From: Chloroflexota bacterium
GTDB lineage: Bacteria > Chloroflexota > Dehalococcoidia > Lucifugimonadales > GCA-002723415
Direction of reading: 5' to 3'
Length of the DNA stretch: 60,134 bases
NCBI GenBank assembly: GCA_002721445.1
Contig: PBKN01000007.1
Span: 1 to 60,134 of the forward strand
How positions within the stretch are numbered: the stretch's first letter is position 1; the number at the start of each line of letters is the position of its first letter. Positions 3,196 to 39,064 of the stretch are shown here, piece after piece. Below the pieces are notes generated by a model. That model made no database searches and was not told the origin of the DNA. It saw nothing but the letters and a program-made list of their open reading frames with translations. The position numbers and the translations under genes were made by a program.

Positions 3196-4708
<1,513 letters not shown>

Positions 4709-4896: not shown

Positions 4897-4972
4897 GGGG
4901 CTGTAGCTCAGTTGGGAGAGCACCTGCTTTGCAAGCAGGGGGTCAGGAGTTCGAGCCTCCTCAGCTCCACCA
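4897..4972 (+). tRNA. tRNA-Ala (anticodon TGC)
   Basis: A full cloverleaf: acceptor GGGGCTG with CAGCTCC, D-arm GCTC...GAGC, anticodon stem CCTGC/GCAGG with loop TTTGCAA (anticodon TGC), T-arm AGGAG-TTCGAGC-CTCCT. The acceptor has the G3-U70 wobble pair, the alanine identity element. The discriminator A is at 4969 and CCA is encoded at 4970-4972. It sits 190 bases after the 16S, the place of the 16S-23S spacer tRNA in classical rRNA operons, although no 23S follows. Confidence 0.96.
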
Positions 4973-12518: not shown

Positions 12519-12743
12519 TGAATTACCTTCTTAATTTTAAATTAATATATATTATTATTATAACTCTTTATTAATTTATTAGTAAAAGAATTTATATTAT
12601 AAGTAATGAATTAATATATTTTTGGAAAAGTCTTAGATTTGTAATAAATAAGTCTAGAAATGCCTTGCGTATTATTATTTTGTTTGGGAAACTGCTTTTA
12701 TAAGTTAAATATTCTGGATTATAGCAATATAAGTTTGAAGGTA

Positions 12744-13676
12744 ATGCGAATATATCACAGTCCTGTAATGGTTCAGGAGGTTTTAGAATCAATAAATTTT
12801 AAGAGTTTAGGAGTATTAGTAGATTGCACCTTAGGTTCAGGAGGGCATTCAGAAGCAATTCTAGAATATGCAAAATCTATTGGAAAAAAAATTAAAATTC
12901 TAGCTTTAGATTTAGATTATGAAGGTATAGAAATAGCAAAAAAAAGGTTGAATAACAATTTAGATTCGATAATTATTAAACAGGGTAATTTTTCGAATAT
13001 ATCTAATATAGTAAAAGAAAGTGGAATAGATAAAGTAGAGGCTGTATTGTTTGATTTAGGGGTATCATCTTTACATTTAGAAAAGCCTATTAGAGGTTTT
13101 AGCTTTCGTCAAGATGCAGAATTGGATATGAGATTTGATATAAATCAAACTGATTCAGCATCTAATGTAATTAACCAAGAATCAGAGGAGACTTTAAAAA
13201 ATATAATTCGTGATTTTGGTGAAGAGCCTCAAGCAAATGCAATTGCTCGCTCAATAGTAAAAAACAGACCAATAAATAGCACTTTAAAATTAGCAGATAT
13301 TATAGTTAGAGCAAAAAAAAGTTATAAATATAAAAGCATTCATCCTGCAACTCAAACTTTCCAAGCTATAAGAATGTATGTTAATAATGAATTAGATAAT
13401 ATAAATTCAGGTATTAAACAAGCTATCAGTTTGTTAAAAAAATCAGGGCGAATAATCACTATTTCTTATCATTCTATCGAAGATAGGTTGGTAAAAAAGC
13501 TTTTGCTTGAAGAATCACGTGAATGTATTTGTCCAACAAATATTTTAGAGTGTGTTTGTAATCATTCAGCCTCACTTAAATTAATGTTTAAAAAAGTTAT
13601 AAAGCCTTCTTTAGAAGAGATTAGGCAAAACCGTAGAAGTAGAAGTGCCAAATTACGAGTAGCTGAGAAAATATAA
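12744..13676 (+). CDS. rsmH: 16S rRNA (cytosine-1402-N4)-methyltransferase RsmH
   Basis: SAM-dependent enzyme that methylates N4 of C1402 in the ribosomal decoding centre; 310 aa, the normal family length. It begins MRIYHSPVMVQEVLE, which matches the conserved RsmH N-terminus, so the longer frame from 12660 is rejected. Motifs are DCTLGSGGHSEAIL (27-40), ALDLDYEGIEIA, FDLGVSSLHLE, GFSFRQDAELDMRFD, and the C-terminal ISYHSIEDRLVK and RRSRSAKLRVAE. In most bacteria rsmH heads the division and cell wall (dcw) cluster; here it is followed directly by ftsA and ftsZ. The 225 bases upstream (12519-12743) hold no gene and no mraZ. Confidence 0.95.
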   Translation: MRIYHSPVMVQEVLESINFKSLGVLVDCTLGSGGHSEAILEYAKSIGKKIKILALDLDYEGIEIAKKRLNNNLDSIIIKQGNFSNISNIVKESGIDKVEAVLFDLGVSSLHLEKPIRGFSFRQDAELDMRFDINQTDSASNVINQESEETLKNIIRDFGEEPQANAIARSIVKNRPINSTLKLADIIVRAKKSYKYKSIHPATQTFQAIRMYVNNELDNINSGIKQAISLLKKSGRIITISYHSIEDRLVKKLLLEESRECICPTNILECVCNHSASLKLMFKKVIKPSLEEIRQNRRSRSAKLRVAEKI

Positions 13677-13707
13677 TGGTTACAAATATGGATAGAGGAG
13701 CATCATT

Positions 13708-14994
13708 ATGGATAATAACATAGTAACAGCGATAGATATAGGTACAGATAAAATTTGTACAATAGTTGCTAAGCCTTCTGGGGATAGTTTTAATATATTG
13801 GGATATAGTAGTGTGCCTTCATTAGGAATACATAAGGGTTTGATTGATGATATTGATTTAGCTTCATCTTCTATAATTAATTCCATCAACCAAGTTCAAA
13901 ATGAATTAGGATTGAATATTCAATCAGCTTACATAGGCATGACTAGTCCAAATATAAATTTTAAAACTAGAATAGATAGAATGGATTCTGTTGCTAAGAA
14001 TGGAGTTATTACTACAGATGACCTAAATTGTAATGTTAGTAATTTGATTAAAAATGAAGATGATGTTAACAATGACTTATTACACGTTATTACTCTTTCA
14101 TATATAGTCGATGGTATAGCTGGTATTAAGAATCCACTTGGTATGCATACTGAGGATTTGCAAGTTGATAATTATTTAATTTCAGGAGATAAACAGCAAG
14201 TAGCTAAAATCCGTCAACTAATAAAAATGGTTGGTATTAATATAGATAAACTTGTATTTACCCCTTTAGGGAACATGATGTCTACTCTTACAGATTTTGA
14301 GAAAGATAATGGAGTGATATTAGTTGATATTGGAAAAGGGACTACTGATATTATTGTTGTTAAAAATAATGCTATTTTATGTACTGATGTAATTCCTGTT
14401 GGAGGTTATCAATTTACTAATGATATTTGTGTAACTTATAATTCAACTTACGATATTGCTGAGAATATTAAATTAAAATGGGGGAATGCTGAATTATTTG
14501 GTATATCGCATTCTGAAGAAGTTGATTTAGACACATCAGATGATTCCGTATTGCGAGTACCTCGTAGAGAGGTTTGCCAATTAATTAGGGAGCGAGCTAC
14601 AGAATTAGCAAGATTAGTTAAGATAAAGTTATCGAATCATGGTATTACTGATTTAGCTGATATGTCTTTAGTTTTAACTGGAGGATCAGGTCAGTTGCCT
14701 GGGATAAATTCTATATTTAGACAATCTTTAGGTAGTAATACTAGATTAGGTTTTCCAAAACATAGTAATGAACTAAAAGATGGGTTAAATAAACCAGAGT
14801 TTTCAAGTTCTTTAGGTATATTGTTATGGGGCTTAGACAAAAAAGGTATTAATAATTCTGATGGTTCAGAATCAAATAAATCAGATTCTAATTTAAATAC
14901 TAAAAATAAAACTTATCAATTTATAAACCAAATTAAAACGTTGTTACCAGTACAACCAATTTCGTCAAAATTAGGGAGAGTATTATGGAAATAA
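13708..14994 (+). CDS. ftsA: Cell division protein FtsA
   Basis: Actin-like ATPase that tethers FtsZ to the membrane at the division site; 428 aa. Actin-fold phosphate loops are DIGTDKICTIVAK near the N-terminus, VDIGKGTTDIIVV in the middle and LTGGSGQLPGI near residue 330; the SHS2-type insertion with SAYIGMTS lies in between. The last residues (SSKLGRVLWK) could be the membrane-contacting helix, though it is not a textbook one. GAGGAG lies 8 bases before the ATG. It overlaps ftsZ by 10 bases, so FtsA and FtsZ are translationally coupled. Fully conventional apart from the missing mur and fts neighbours. Confidence 0.95.
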   Translation: MDNNIVTAIDIGTDKICTIVAKPSGDSFNILGYSSVPSLGIHKGLIDDIDLASSSIINSINQVQNELGLNIQSAYIGMTSPNINFKTRIDRMDSVAKNGVITTDDLNCNVSNLIKNEDDVNNDLLHVITLSYIVDGIAGIKNPLGMHTEDLQVDNYLISGDKQQVAKIRQLIKMVGINIDKLVFTPLGNMMSTLTDFEKDNGVILVDIGKGTTDIIVVKNNAILCTDVIPVGGYQFTNDICVTYNSTYDIAENIKLKWGNAELFGISHSEEVDLDTSDDSVLRVPRREVCQLIRERATELARLVKIKLSNHGITDLADMSLVLTGGSGQLPGINSIFRQSLGSNTRLGFPKHSNELKDGLNKPEFSSSLGILLWGLDKKGINNSDGSESNKSDSNLNTKNKTYQFINQIKTLLPVQPISSKLGRVLWK

Positions 14995-16085
14995 TTAATA
15001 GTATAAATCCAAGAGAAATAGCAAAAATTAAAGTAATTGGTGTTGGAGGTGGAGGATCTAATGCAGTATCCAGGATGTTTAGGGAAAGAATTCCTGGCGT
15101 AGAATATGTTGTTGTTAACACAGATGCACAAGCATTACTTCAAAGTGATATTCCTATGAAAATACGTATTGGAGAGCAATTAACTGCTGGCAAGGGGGTT
15201 GGTGGTGACCCAGATTTAGGAATGCGTTCAGCTGAAGAAAGTAGAGAAGAGTTATTTGAAGTAGTACGAGATACAGATATGATTTTTGTAGCAGCAGGAA
15301 TGGGTGGTGGAACAGGTACAGGTTCTGCACCGGTACTTGCTCAAATAGCTAAAGAAACAGGTGCTCTTACTGTTGGAGTAGTAACAAAACCTTTTAGTTT
15401 TGAAGGTAGTAAGAGAACAAAATCTGCCGAAGAAGGAATAAGGAATTTGGGACAGAATGTTGATACACTGTTAGTTATACCTAATGAAAGATTACATGTT
15501 ATATGTGATGAAGAGATTACAGCTGAAAATGCATTTAAAATGGCCGATGATGTCTTACGTTCAGGGGTTCAATCCATAGCTGAACTTGTTACTACTGCTG
15601 GAGATATAAATGTTGATTTTGCTGATATTAACACAGTTATGCGTGATGCTGGTCCAGCATGGATGTCTATAGGTTGGGGTGTAGGAGAAAACAGAGCGAG
15701 AGAAGCAGCTCAGCAAGCTATAACAAATCCACTGCTAGATGTTTCTATAGAAAGCGCAAAAGGGGTTTTATTTAATGTAACTGGTGGCAGCGATTTGAAG
15801 TTATCTGAATTACATGAAGCAGCAGAGGTTATTCAACGTGTAGTTGATCCAGATGCTAATATTATATTTGGAATGGTTACTGATCCAAAAATGGAGAATG
15901 AAATAAAGTTGACGATTGTTGCTACTGGATTTCCTACTGTTGAAAGTATGCAAGAAAGAGAAACACAAATACAAAATATGCTTGAAGATGTTTTAGATGG
16001 AGAAGAGACTGATTTAGATGTTCCTCCATTTTTAAGACGATATTCAATGAGTAGACATAATACTAATGGCTCAATGAATAAATAA
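14985..16085 (+). CDS. ftsZ: Cell division protein FtsZ
   Basis: Tubulin-like GTPase forming the division ring; 366 aa. The nucleotide-binding start GVGGGGSNAV (19-28), the tubulin signature GGGTGTGSAP (107-116), PNERL (166-170) and the T7-loop acids D211 and D214 are all present. The conserved C-terminal peptide DVPPFLRR (345-352) that binds FtsA is reached after an unusually short linker of roughly 30 residues, and 14 further residues follow it. AGGGAG precedes the ATG within ftsA. The gene ends the rsmH-ftsA-ftsZ unit before a strong terminator. Confidence 0.98.
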   Translation: MEIINSINPREIAKIKVIGVGGGGSNAVSRMFRERIPGVEYVVVNTDAQALLQSDIPMKIRIGEQLTAGKGVGGDPDLGMRSAEESREELFEVVRDTDMIFVAAGMGGGTGTGSAPVLAQIAKETGALTVGVVTKPFSFEGSKRTKSAEEGIRNLGQNVDTLLVIPNERLHVICDEEITAENAFKMADDVLRSGVQSIAELVTTAGDINVDFADINTVMRDAGPAWMSIGWGVGENRAREAAQQAITNPLLDVSIESAKGVLFNVTGGSDLKLSELHEAAEVIQRVVDPDANIIFGMVTDPKMENEIKLTIVATGFPTVESMQERETQIQNMLEDVLDGEETDLDVPPFLRRYSMSRHNTNGSMNK

Positions 16086-34977: not shown

Positions 34978-35610
34978 TTGAAGGCAGAACTCTTAACAAC
35001 AATGGGTAGTGATTTAACTGTTGTAAATAGTGCTAGGGTTTCATTTGATAAACATGTTGATGAATTTCGTGACCAAGATGAAAAACTCCTGAAGTATTTG
35101 GCCTCCCATGGTCATTGGACTCCTTTTGCGCACCCTCAATTACAATTTAGGATTTCAGCACCTATTTTTGTTGCAAGGCAACTAGTTAAGCATCAGATAG
35201 GTTTAGTATGGAATGAAGTAAGCAGGAGATATGTTGATACAGTTCCAAGATTTTTTATTCCAGAAAAATGGAGAGAAAGACCAAAAAACAAAAAACAAGG
35301 GTCTGGAACAGAAGTTATAGATCTTACTAATGAAGAAGATGAAGCTATATTAAAATTACATAAAGATGCTCTTGATTTATATTCTAAACTACTTTTGAAA
35401 AATGTAGCGCCTGAACAAGCCCGGATGCTGTTGCCTCAATCTATGTATACGGAGTGGTATTGGACAGGTAGTTTATTTGCTTTTTCTAGAGTTTATGGAT
35501 TGAGAACTACAGAGGATGCTCAAATGGAGACCAGAGAATTAGTTGAATCTATGGGAAGCCAAATTCATGCTCACTTTCCAATTAGTTGGAAATATTTGAC
35601 ATCTAGTTAA
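34978..35610 (+). CDS. thyX: Flavin-dependent thymidylate synthase ThyX
   Basis: Makes dTMP from dUMP with FAD, methylenetetrahydrofolate and NADPH; 210 aa. The ThyX motif, usually RHRx7S, reads K71-H-Q-IGLVWNEV-S82-RRY, a variant known mainly from phage and marine sequences. The FAD/dUMP contacts HWTPFAHP and ARMLLPQSMYTEWYWTG-like region (ARxxLP...) are present. Translation starts at TTG with TTGGAG upstream. It follows pdhC by 27 bases; with nrdJ it supplies DNA precursors. Its stop overlaps the convergent MFS gene by 4 bases. Confidence 0.92.
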   Translation: MKAELLTTMGSDLTVVNSARVSFDKHVDEFRDQDEKLLKYLASHGHWTPFAHPQLQFRISAPIFVARQLVKHQIGLVWNEVSRRYVDTVPRFFIPEKWRERPKNKKQGSGTEVIDLTNEEDEAILKLHKDALDLYSKLLLKNVAPEQARMLLPQSMYTEWYWTGSLFAFSRVYGLRTTEDAQMETRELVESMGSQIHAHFPISWKYLTSS

Positions 35611-37052
35611 TTTTTATTTTTAATTAAAATTAATGGAATTATTCCAATGACACATAATATAGAAGCTATTAAAAAAAACTCGTTGAATAACTTTAGACCA
35701 GATTCTGTAATTTGCAATTGAATATCAGATGTAAGGTTATTAGAATTTAAATTAGTTTGGCTAAATATTGGTAGAATATGAATATCATTTGTTAATTCTT
35801 TAAATCTAGATGTACCCCATGCACTTATCCATGACATAGTCAAAGTCATACCAATTAGCCTGCTGACAGTCAATATGCTTGCGGCAGTAGTTTTATAAGT
35901 TTCTTGAATAGATTCTAATCCTTTAGAATATATTGGAGATATCAACATTCCTAGACCAAACCCTGTAACAAATAAGTGAATAGTTAAGCTGGGATCAGAT
36001 ATTTCTAAAGTCCAATTACTCATTAGTAAAAATCCAATACTAGATATTATTAATCCAATTATTACAGTTATTTTATAGTTTGTTTTTTGGTATATTATCC
36101 CCCCTAATATTGCAGACACTGGAATAGCAATAGTCATTCTCATTAGATATAAACCTCCATCTAATGGGTTTAGTCCTAACACAGTATTTGCCATTAAAGG
36201 TACAGTAATCATACCAATCATAAGAGATGATCCAATTAAAAGATGAGATAAATTAACTGATATAAAATTATAAGTTTTAAATTGTGATTTTATGTTATTA
36301 AAATTTTTAGAATTTATTTGAATTATTAGAATTAATGTTGTGATTATAAAAATTGTGAAGTAAATATATGTATATATATCTATTGGATTCAATTTATTAA
36401 GTCCTAAAGTTATAGATACAAGAGAAATAATTAATATAAAGCCTGATATGAGATTAAATTTTTCACCGCTAGATTTTTTAGGATTTATAAATAGTATACA
36501 AGTTAATAATACAATTAGCCCTAGGGGAATATTTATCCAGAATACCCACTTCCAGTTTATATAATTAGATATGATTCCTCCCCATAATGGTCCTATTACT
36601 CCTCCAGCTTCTGCTGTGCCTCCAATTATACCTATAGGTACTGCAATTTTATTTTGTGGAAAATAATCCGATGTTATGCTTATACCTATCGGTATTAAAG
36701 CACCTGCTCCAATTGCTTGAAATATTCTTGATAATATTAATAATTCTATTGTTGGAGATAATGCAACTAAAATTGATCCGATTAAAAAAGTTATTATACA
36801 CAGCATAAATATTCTGCGTTTACCATATATATCTGATATTCTTCCTATTACTGGAATTGCTGATATATATCCAATTAAATATCCTGTTATACTCCATGAG
36901 ACTTTATTTAGTTCATTTGGAGCTATATTCATATCATTCATAATTTCAGGAATTATAGTTACTATTACTGTTTGGTCATCAGCTGCTATAAATACTCCTA
37001 AACAAATTGGTAAAAGTGAAATATAAGGATATTTTTTTATTTTATTCAACAT
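35607..37052 (-). CDS. MFS transporter, DHA2 family (P55-like)
   Basis: A 481-aa integral membrane exporter with about 14 hydrophobic segments, the DHA2 (14-TM drug:proton antiporter) pattern. The first segment has LGVFIAADDQTVIVTIIPEI, where most members carry LDxTIVNVALP; motif A is GRISDIYGKRRIFM after the second. Directly upstream on the same strand, 10 bases away, lies an LprG-like lipoprotein gene, the order of the mycobacterial lprG-p55 lipid export operon. Function as lipid or drug exporter is inferred. Confidence 0.85.
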   Translation of the reverse strand: MLNKIKKYPYISLLPICLGVFIAADDQTVIVTIIPEIMNDMNIAPNELNKVSWSITGYLIGYISAIPVIGRISDIYGKRRIFMLCIITFLIGSILVALSPTIELLILSRIFQAIGAGALIPIGISITSDYFPQNKIAVPIGIIGGTAEAGGVIGPLWGGIISNYINWKWVFWINIPLGLIVLLTCILFINPKKSSGEKFNLISGFILIISLVSITLGLNKLNPIDIYTYIYFTIFIITTLILIIQINSKNFNNIKSQFKTYNFISVNLSHLLIGSSLMIGMITVPLMANTVLGLNPLDGGLYLMRMTIAIPVSAILGGIIYQKTNYKITVIIGLIISSIGFLLMSNWTLEISDPSLTIHLFVTGFGLGMLISPIYSKGLESIQETYKTTAASILTVSRLIGMTLTMSWISAWGTSRFKELTNDIHILPIFSQTNLNSNNLTSDIQLQITESGLKLFNEFFLIASILCVIGIIPLILIKNKN

Positions 37053-37062
37053 AACTTATAGT

Positions 37063-37788
37063 TTATTGATTTGGTAAAGATATAGATATTATTTCATTAA
37101 ATTTAGATAATTTAATAATTCTTTTTGTATTATTTTGTTCCATATTATTTATCTTGCCTATTAGTATAGCTTTAGAAAGCAAAAAATCTGATTTTCTGAT
37201 AGTTAATAATACTTCTATATTAGCTTCTTCTACAGGCTCGGGTACTATTGATGCTAAAGATTTATTAGGCAATATTCCATTTATGACATATTTTTCAGTG
37301 GTATTTTCAGTGATTTGTGGTTTTGAGATATCATTAAGGATGTTTGATATTCCTTCACTAGGGTCAAAAAAATTTATTGGGTTTAAATTTTCAGGTATTT
37401 TTTCCCAGATTTCATTTAATGGATTTTTTAGATAGGTTGATTGATTAGTTACAATTACTCCTGACTTAATTGGTATTCCACTAATTAAGCCGCTAAATTC
37501 AATATTAAGTTCTTCCGAATTTATAATATAACCTTTGGCTGATATAAGAGATAAATTAGTTGAGATAAAAGTGAACCCATTTTCATGAGATAAGTCCAAA
37601 TAAAAAGAATTTAGTTTTTCTATAGATTTGCTAGATTTATTTAAAATTTCTATTGGACTTATATATTTTTCTTCTTCATAAATATTTGTATTACTAGATG
37701 AATTGCAACTTAATAATATTATTATCAAATTTACAACAATATAAGTTATTATTAAGTTGCTTAGTTTTAAAATATTATTTTGGATCAT
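37063..37788 (-). CDS. LppX/LprAFG-like lipoprotein (LprG-like)
   Basis: A 241-aa lipoprotein: hydrophobic signal peptide ending in lipobox LLSC with C28 as the lipidated residue. The mature part is predicted to be the curved beta-sheet fold of the LppX/LprAFG family that shelters an acyl chain: SPIEILNKSSKSIEKLNSFYLDLSHENG, alternating strands, and WEKIPENLNPINFFDPSEGISNIL are family-like (the W..IP...L.P..lfdp..gi pattern). The next gene encodes a DHA2 transporter. Together they may move a lipid to the cell surface, by analogy with mycobacteria. Identification is by pattern and context, so moderate. Confidence 0.68.
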   Translation of the reverse strand: MIQNNILKLSNLIITYIVVNLIIILLSCNSSSNTNIYEEEKYISPIEILNKSSKSIEKLNSFYLDLSHENGFTFISTNLSLISAKGYIINSEELNIEFSGLISGIPIKSGVIVTNQSTYLKNPLNEIWEKIPENLNPINFFDPSEGISNILNDISKPQITENTTEKYVINGILPNKSLASIVPEPVEEANIEVLLTIRKSDFLLSKAILIGKINNMEQNNTKRIIKLSKFNEIISISLPNQ

Positions 37789-37804: not shown

Positions 37805-37864
37805 ATAAAATAAAAGAACCCTGAATAAAGTCATATGACTAAATCCAGGGTTCTTTTATTTTAT
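37805..37864 (-). terminator. Intrinsic terminator between the LPITG protein gene and the lprG-like gene
   Basis: Arms of 19 bases (37805-37823 and 37846-37864, core AAGAACCCTG/CAGGGTTCTT) are perfectly complementary; on the minus strand the stem ends in a T-rich tail. The loop itself contains the palindrome AGTCATATGACT. It sits 13 bases after the stop of the upstream minus-strand gene, so lprG-like/MFS need their own promoter. Confidence 0.88.
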
Positions 37865-37876
37865 AATCTTTAAAAA

Positions 37877-39064
37877 CTAAGCTCTGTTTTTCCTTGAAAC
37901 TCTAAGAGCTATAGTACCTATAGATAGAGATATTATTGCTAATAATAGAGTAATAGGCAACAAATTAGTTATTGGAATTCCCCCTGTTATAGGCAAACCA
38001 CTGCCATCATAACGTAATACAGGGTTAATAGATGAAGGGGAAATACCACCGCTTGTTACTGAAGCTAATCTAAATGAAGCCATAAGCTGTGTATCTCTAA
38101 TTGCTTGTTTAGCACCACCTTCACCGGCAACAGCTTCAATAGATGAGTTTTTATTACTATCAAATCCATCTCTAGCAGCTTCTAGGTTACTAATTAAAGT
38201 TCCAGCACCAGGCCCAACAAATATTTGTGCAATTACAAGCTCGTCTTCAGCTATTATATTAGTAATAGCTATATCTCTAGCTAGAGTAGCCCAATCTTCT
38301 GTATTTTTAGCATCTATTTTAACTAGTGTGGATGTTCCAGTTATATATGGATCTCCAGGTACTGCCTCCGATGCTGTAGTGGCAATTGATCTATCAGCAG
38401 CATAGTTTAGTATTCCATAGCCATCACCATTTACAGTTCCAGCTTTGTAATTGGCTCCAGAGGAACCTTCAATTATATTTATTACATCTTGAGCATGTCC
38501 TTGCATTTCAGCTAAGGTAGTAGCATTTTTTGCAGCATGAGCACTAGTAATAGCTAGGTCAAGCTGAGTAACTAGGTTACGAAATACTCCTGTTTCACCT
38601 GTCGGGCTCTTACCAGCTAAATGTCTTATATGAATCAATCCATCTGCTGGAACTTGATGCATGTATAAAACAGTGCCAGGGCTAGACGTATCATCATCTG
38701 GAACAGTTTCTGATGTAATTATTGCAGTTGCGAAATTTTGGAGTAAGTCTATTCCAGTATAACCAGTAGAAGCACTATTAAATGATAGGCTAGCACTTCC
38801 GTCTGCTGCAACTGAAATTACTCCAGTACTTAAGAAAGTTTTAGCATCATCAGACACTAGCCAACTTTCATAAGCTGTTCCTTCTGCAGGTATTGGTAGA
38901 CTATGCAATGTATATCTAATTGCATCATTTGATGAAATATCATCATGTATTTCAGCATTCCCGATTCTTGTTTTTTGTTCCTCTTCCTCAGCTAGTATTA
39001 CTGAAGTCGGGAAAACCATCAGTAAAACTATAGCTAAGAAAGCGGTTAACTTATACCTAAGCAT
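37877..39064 (-). CDS. Secreted surface protein of unknown function with LPITG-type C-terminal tail
   Basis: I do not recognise the function. The 395-aa chain has a signal peptide (MLRYKLTAFLAIVLLMVFPTSVILA, then an acidic EEEEQ) and a C-terminus with L357-P-I-T-G, a hydrophobic stretch of about 25 residues and a basic end (RVSRKNRA), which is the layout of a sortase LPXTG signal or simply a C-terminal membrane anchor. The first domain (AYESWLVSDDAKTFLSTGVISVAADGSASLSF) recalls the extracytoplasmic part of RskA-like proteins; the middle is Ala/Thr-rich and probably helical. No cysteine is evident. GGGAGG lies 13 bases before the ATG. A strong terminator follows, so it is likely a single-gene unit made in quantity. 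Confidence 0.6.
   Translation of the reverse strand: MLRYKLTAFLAIVLLMVFPTSVILAEEEEQKTRIGNAEIHDDISSNDAIRYTLHSLPIPAEGTAYESWLVSDDAKTFLSTGVISVAADGSASLSFNSASTGYTGIDLLQNFATAIITSETVPDDDTSSPGTVLYMHQVPADGLIHIRHLAGKSPTGETGVFRNLVTQLDLAITSAHAAKNATTLAEMQGHAQDVINIIEGSSGANYKAGTVNGDGYGILNYAADRSIATTASEAVPGDPYITGTSTLVKIDAKNTEDWATLARDIAITNIIAEDELVIAQIFVGPGAGTLISNLEAARDGFDSNKNSSIEAVAGEGGAKQAIRDTQLMASFRLASVTSGGISPSSINPVLRYDGSGLPITGGIPITNLLPITLLLAIISLSIGTIALRVSRKNRA

Follow-up and report, generated by a model that had tools for sequence, protein, structure and literature searches.

The window analysed here, which is the whole stretch of 60,134 nucleotides of DNA, encodes a secreted surface protein of 395 residues with a sortase-type C-terminal signal, and a single sortase is encoded elsewhere in the same genome. 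The reading we favor, with a probability of about 0.72, is that this protein is the target of that sortase and would be transferred to an envelope amine outside peptidoglycan. Sequence evidence supports the existence of both the enzyme and the signal, namely the layout of the protein, the conservation of its tail, the same tail on unrelated proteins and an intact catalytic triad in the sortase; that the protein is cut, that it is joined covalently and what it is joined to are points that we infer. Specifically, the signal peptide would direct export of the protein, and the C-terminal helix would keep it in the membrane. The sortase (L001:1456-2460, minus strand) would then cut between T360 and G361 and join the carboxyl group freed at T360 to an amine of some envelope constituent other than lipid II or peptidoglycan, which is proposed because Mur ligases went undetected in this lineage, where a sortase system persists.

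The substrate protein and its C-terminal signal

The substrate gene and its terminator comprise the following features.

37877–39064, minus strand: CDS of a secreted surface protein with a sortase-type C-terminal signal (395 aa, ATG start)
38990–39064, minus strand: N-terminal signal peptide, residues about 1–25, with a basic start, a hydrophobic core and the end ...SVILA (sequence, hydrophobicity)
38654–38968, minus strand: Ig-like/RskA-like beta domain, residues 33–137 (AlphaFold2 strands; RskA_C in homologues)
38060–38647, minus strand: helical domain, residues about 140–335 (AlphaFold2; no match in Pfam)
37997–38059, minus strand: variable linker, residues 336–356 (columns mostly unconserved)
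37982–37996, minus strand: LPITG motif, residues 357–361 (sequence, conservation; predicted cut T360/G361)
37904–37969, minus strand: transmembrane helix, residues about 366–387, including the invariant G383 (AlphaFold2, conservation)
37880–37903, minus strand: basic tail RVSRKNRA (sequence)
37805–37864, minus strand: hairpin terminator 3' of the gene (RNA fold)

All the parts of an LPXTG protein are present, that is, a signal peptide, LPxTG, a membrane helix and a basic tail. Hydrophobicity peaks at 2.5 over residues 6–24, with the signal peptide probably cleaved near residue 25, and the hydrophobic 19-residue windows fall inside residues 1–28 and 359–391. Structure prediction, which the first-pass annotation had suggested, gave an AlphaFold2 model with a mean pLDDT of 90.5, built from a 47-row alignment of homologues, in which a beta domain (strands 33–137) is followed by a helical domain (helices mainly 140–328) and a C-terminal helix (365–394). 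Residues 355–364, which contain LPITG, are the sole stretch of three or more residues with pLDDT below 50. A fold search with the whole model against the PDB returned nothing significant (best E 0.043), and the helical domain of the substrate matches no Pfam family.

The first domain had been called RskA-like, which is weak for the substrate itself, where RskA_C (PF10099) scores 19.4 bits under a curated cut-off of 29.4, and better founded for its homologues, 28 of 47 of which match at E <= 0.01 (best 7e-12). The middle part, described as Ala/Thr-rich, proved moderately Ala-rich, with 16% Ala and 9% Thr over residues 156–335. The strong terminator of its own that had been ascribed to the gene was borne out by a hairpin of -34.1 kcal/mol (z = -9.1); this hairpin is absent from the output of a consensus terminator scanner, probably owing to the scanner's shape limits. 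Around the homologues, an ECF-sigma-like BLAST cluster, named after its representative, touches 16 of 68 loci, mostly upstream and on the same strand (L069:2278-3663 and similar loci), and an anti-sigma-like ORF was seen by eye upstream of the homologue in L005. A regex search for ECF sigma genes upstream of homologues found none in 42 loci. The RskA-like domain may derive from an anti-sigma factor of such loci.

The statement that the protein has no recognisable relatives did not hold. Homologues occur in 76 of the 147 genomes of its order, its own included, and a relative was found at 19 named loci (8 Dehalococcoidia, 6 Chloroflexi, 4 SAR202 cluster and 1 Anaerolineae, two of these loci coming from one record); a scan of named sequences with the single protein found none. 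By these named relatives the genome probably belongs to SAR202/Dehalococcoidia. Usable ends were available for 71 homologues, leaving out six matching loci that were cut off or doubtful and the fetched locus L107, which had no match. PxxG stands ahead of the membrane helix in 67 of the 71, the motif Pro being replaced by another residue in L014, L015, L083 and L085. Among the 67, the first motif position is Leu (30), Pro (21), Thr (8) or Ala (8), the fourth is most often Thr (33) or Val (27), and Asp follows the motif Gly in 54.

All 47 aligned homologues share G361 and G383, and 94% share P358, so the tail read in the first-pass annotation as L357-P-I-T-G, a hydrophobic stretch and a basic end is real. 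That annotation had held that its reading would fall if the genome lacked a sortase and orthologues did not conserve LPxTG; the genome has a sortase and the homologues conserve PxxG, although strict LPxTG is found in just 12 of the 71 tails. Asp follows G361 in 87% of the aligned homologues (Gly in the substrate itself), whereas no column from 340 to 357, in and just after the linker, is conserved above 36%. This contrast suggests that the signal is PxxG(D), of which LPxTG is one form, and it would be better written [L/P/A/T]PxxGD than LPxTG. G383 lies inside the membrane helix, 22 residues past the motif Gly, and we know of no fixed Gly of this kind in classical LPXTG tails.

The tail is found beyond the family as well. 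A tail profile (A2) built from 43 homologue tails, with a match taken as E <= 0.01, hits 99 of the 147 genomes. Reading of 20 stretches fetched around non-family hits across the order gave 21 further proteins with the tail, one of them (L222) lacking the Pro, which answers the earlier suggestion to look for other proteins with the same tail. Pfam matches on 20 of the 21 are SGL (three), PD40, NHL and fn3 (two, one with SdrD_B), together with Lipoprotein_15 repeats and, in L222, BNR_2; 11 of the 20 have no Pfam family. Since the same tail is carried by such unrelated proteins as propellers and fn3 proteins, it looks like a modular sorting signal. Within its own genome the substrate is matched at 7e-10 and the next hit at 0.92. 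A strict LPxTG DNA pattern gives 27 hits there, as many as its reversed-pattern control (27), and one of these sites has an anchor layout, that of the substrate. An FPITG in L166 was rejected as a second substrate, as it ends a protein with several hydrophobic stretches. The tail model and the strict LPxTG sites thus gave no substrate in this genome beyond the 395-residue protein.

These observations bear on whether the tail could be a plain C-terminal membrane anchor, its motif unprocessed and the protein staying in the membrane, which was one of two options offered earlier and fits poorly. Consistent with it, a single substrate was found in the genome and the tail misses the curated LPXTG models. 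The substrate matches neither PF00746 nor TIGR01167, and the weak matches among the 47 homologues number two for TIGR01167, two for the LAVTG type and one for PF00746. However, a plain anchor has no need for a fixed PxxGD before the helix or an invariant G383 within it next to a freely varying linker, unrelated proteins carry the same tail, and the genome encodes a sortase with an intact triad. We therefore regard it as unlikely. The other option, a sortase acting on another surface polymer, fits best.

The sortase and its distribution

L001:1456-2460, minus strand: sortase of 334 aa (own genome G000, contig C9, outside the window; Pfam Sortase PF04203)

The window had been said to hold no sortase, and the sole one found does lie elsewhere in the genome. 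In this assembly (1.71 Mb, 18 contigs, 99% complete) one sortase exceeds the Pfam cut-off, scoring 62.1 and 60.8 bits with PF04203 against a cut-off of 26.6, and its His/Cys/Arg triad is complete. Its AlphaFold2 model (pLDDT 82) matches solved sortases D, A and C in Foldseek, with best E values of 2.6e-9 to 7e-9. Contamination is an unlikely source because the gene matches the order profile at 9e-82, although its own sequence is among the 51 of that profile, and because FtsY-like and zinc-ribbon-like neighbours lie beside it as they do beside other sortases of the order.

An alignment of 83 sortases from the order, 82 of them distinct, retains Arg throughout, His in 82 and Cys in 80. The three without Cys at its column are G131, the second copy in G003, and G006, the last of which has a Cys one residue earlier than expected. 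G003 carries two adjacent sortases (L114:2235-3149 and L262:2003-3040, both minus strand), one of them without His and Cys, and G131 has Ala-Ser at the Cys position; the second copy in G003 and the sortase of G131 are possibly inactive. By a crude cut-off, an N-terminal hydrophobic segment is found in 81 of the 83 and a C-terminal one in a single sequence.

The own sortase falls under the cut-off of every NCBIfam class tried (C, D, E, F and GN) and of sortase_fam (35.3 bits, cut-off 39.35). The best named class is C, at 38.9–41.8 bits, which would accord with a sortase that, like the class C pilin enzymes, joins its substrate into a fibre via a lysine, and such polymerisation would be independent of peptidoglycan. 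However, these scores are far from the class C cut-off of 160 bits, and class C sortases usually carry the C-terminal hydrophobic segment that is seen here in 1 of 83. In addition, the best lysine column outside the signal peptide reaches 43% across the 47 homologues. Fibre formation is thus very improbable, and a homopolymer through a conserved lysine was rejected because these homologues have none outside the signal peptide.

The commonest genes beside the sortases, named by eye, are LysR-like, amidohydrolase-like and FtsY-like genes and one for a small zinc-ribbon-like protein. As clues to the acceptor they were set aside, since they point to none. This would be in keeping with a sortase that acts mainly as a protease, cutting its substrate and releasing it by hydrolysis, as would the failure to find Mur ligases (PF01225). 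Against such shedding, the full triad is present in nearly all 83 aligned sortases, and known sortases are mostly transpeptidases. Shedding appears unlikely to us, slightly more so than the plain anchor, and transfer to an envelope amine is the preferred outcome of cleavage.

Pfam Sortase matches 106 of the 147 genomes, and an order-specific profile (A4), made from 51 sortases of the order with the own one included, matches 125 of the 147 and 66 of the 78 good genomes. Seven of the 125 are doubtful, all from genus g65 (G093, G125, G129, G133, G137, G141 and G145); they score 78–100 bits, each match being interrupted by one stop codon, and may be either broken genes or matches that overrun a gene end. 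In the 78 good genomes, tail and sortase occur together in 45, the tail only in 3, the sortase only in 21 and neither in 9 (Fisher p 0.008), and in all 147 the counts are 88, 11, 37 and 11 (p 0.08). These statistics ignore kinship, and related genomes are not independent counts. Seven of the 21 good sortase genomes without a tail by the tail model belong to g65; if the g65 sortases are counted as absent, the good genomes give 45, 3, 14 and 16 (p 4e-6), a figure that we do not rely upon.

The three good genomes with the tail only are G104, in which the hit begins past the motif Pro and Gly, and G112 and G122, whose same-genus relatives do carry a sortase. Of all 11 tail-positive genomes without a sortase, two (G054 and G104) have the motif outside the hit, and the remaining nine are 66–92% complete, so missing sequence may account for them. 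When the protein family is used in place of the tail, the 147 genomes give both in 65, family only in 11, sortase only in 41 and neither in 30 with Pfam Sortase (p 2e-4), and 68, 8, 57 and 14 in the same order with the A4 profile (p 0.16). By genus, the tail occurs in 48 of 69 sortase-positive genera and a motif-spanning tail in none of 9 sortase-negative ones (p 8e-5); this table drops incomplete sortase-negative genera with tails (g68, g78) or partial hits (g22, g61), and restoring them gives 48, 4, 21 and 7 (p 0.044).

Mur ligases and the peptidoglycan question

12660–16085, plus strand: division cluster, which we take from its sequences to be rsmH-ftsA-ftsZ, with no mur gene seen beside it (ORF list)
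3196–4705, plus strand: 16S rRNA gene
4897–4969: tRNA

No match to 23S or 5S rRNA at the gathering score was found within the window.

The division genes had been noted to lack mur neighbours, and this extends genome-wide. The search for peptidoglycan genes covered Mur ligases (PF01225) and found none in the 99% complete own genome, so the earlier proposal to look for sortase and mur genes together turned up a sortase above the Pfam cut-off and no Mur ligase. PF01225 was positive in 10 of 14 control genomes and in 4 of the 147 of the order, clearly in G082 and G103 (76–78% complete) and near threshold in G106 and G135. Of 393 genomes sampled from the class, 166 give a match. The same 393 include 102 with a match to the sortase profile, namely 41 of the own order, at 191 bits or above, and 61 outside it, at 170 bits or below; in the 147-genome search some members of the order, mainly of family f41, score only 78–134 bits.

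The literature agrees with this picture. According to one study, cultured SAR202 strains encode no peptidoglycan synthesis and have a layer reminiscent of an S-layer (PMC10444878), and another describes SAR202 as having an S-layer and no peptidoglycan (PMC11994032). A third reports that core peptidoglycan genes were lost once in the ancestor of most Dehalococcoidia orders and that Tepidiforma keeps a wall (PMC10284905). The word "sortase" is absent from the main texts of all three. Excerpts of PMC1586193 mention one sortase-like protein in Chloroflexus and give no evidence of activity. Among titles and abstract openings on sortases in SAR202, Dehalococcoidia, Chloroflexota, wall-less cells or archaea, a set with few subscription journals or preprints, there was nothing on this system.

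Mur ligases are present in 51 of the 61 sortase genomes outside the order and absent from 10, which suggests lipid II as a possible ancestral acceptor, and the pattern would fit an ancestral sortase kept after wall loss. The same 51 genomes are the point in favor of ordinary peptidoglycan as the present acceptor, made by a missed pathway or obtained from neighbours. This seems highly unlikely given that a Mur ligase is absent from the own genome and from 143 of the 147 of the order, and that the cultured SAR202 are described as without the pathway (PMC10444878). An acceptor other than peptidoglycan is therefore preferred.

Candidate acceptors and the LprG/Rv1410-like pair

37063–37788, minus strand: LprG/LppX-like lipoprotein, an often-conserved downstream neighbour (Pfam LppX_LprAFG 24.6 bits, cut-off 24)
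35607–37052, minus strand: MFS transporter of the Rv1410 (triacylglyceride) type, an often-conserved downstream neighbour (PDB match 8pnl)

At a guess, the acceptor amine would sit on an S-layer, a glycan, a lipid or a lipoglycan. The genes downstream of the substrate make a lipid or lipoglycan the first candidate. The best PDB match of the MFS protein is 8pnl, a mycobacterial triacylglyceride transporter, at E 9e-65 (the next is EmrB, 3e-24), and a profile match to the Rv1410-type structure reaches 1e-102. The lipoprotein of the window, run alone against structures, gave no LprG match; a profile of 16 downstream lipoproteins finds LprG structures (E 3e-4), and 13 of the 16 match LppX_LprAFG at E <= 0.01. 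The window thus holds an LppX_LprAFG lipoprotein adjoining an MFS protein nearest to an Rv1410 homologue, as in an LprG-Rv1410 pair. In mycobacteria, LprG and Rv1410 are described as transporters of triacylglycerides (PMC10576003). As in the mycobacterial LprG-Rv1410c (P55) operon, a lipoprotein gene is followed by an Rv1410-type MFS gene; unlike there, the gene ahead of the pair encodes a sortase substrate, and no Mur ligases were detected in the bacteria.

Synteny was read in 48 loci, the window among them and the others fetched with longer flanks; of the 30 short-flank loci of the first search, the own locus alone was covered, through the window. In 21 of the 39 with at least 2.6 kb downstream, the window's own included, a lipoprotein gene and then an MFS gene follow the homologue on the same strand. 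The 21 come from 7 families, 17 of them from three, and are not independent. In the window a terminator lies between the substrate gene and the pair, so co-transcription is not required here. As the substrate gene lies beside this exporter in many lineages, the acceptor could be a lipid or lipoglycan delivered to the surface by it. Phosphatidylethanolamine made by PS decarboxylase is an unlikely acceptor, since PF02666 occurs in none of the 147 genomes (6 of 14 controls positive).

The system resembles the Gram-positive LPXTG/sortase system of the SrtA type in its signal peptide, ectodomain, flexible linker, LPxTG-like motif, helix and basic tail, and in a sortase with His/Cys/Arg. It differs in that no Mur ligases were found for the acceptor, the motif is relaxed to [L/P/A/T]PxxGD, the helix has an invariant Gly, and the sortase falls below named-class cut-offs. 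Archaeosortases and exosortases are integral-membrane proteins unrelated to sortases, and in the archaeal systems proteins are anchored to lipid. The present system shares with these (PGF-CTERM, PEP-CTERM) a modular C-terminal motif, helix and basic tail and an anchoring independent of peptidoglycan; unlike theirs, its enzyme qualifies as a true sortase on both Pfam score and fold. PEP-CTERM is described in excerpts of PMC1569441.

In the textbook view, sortases attach proteins to peptidoglycan. That most genomes of an order almost without Mur ligases keep a sortase implies another acceptor, and an otherwise unknown secreted protein gains a concrete role. Tentatively, and at somewhat less than even odds, a wall-less radiation may have kept its sortase and re-tasked it to a new acceptor, perhaps a lipid or lipoglycan brought by the LprG/Rv1410-like exporter, which would amount to a sortase-built lipid anchor. 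Since SAR202 bacteria occur throughout the ocean and some have been grown in culture (PMC10444878), this proposal can be tested. Knowing the acceptor would explain how the surface of such cells is made and could yield an enzyme that ligates proteins to a new acceptor.
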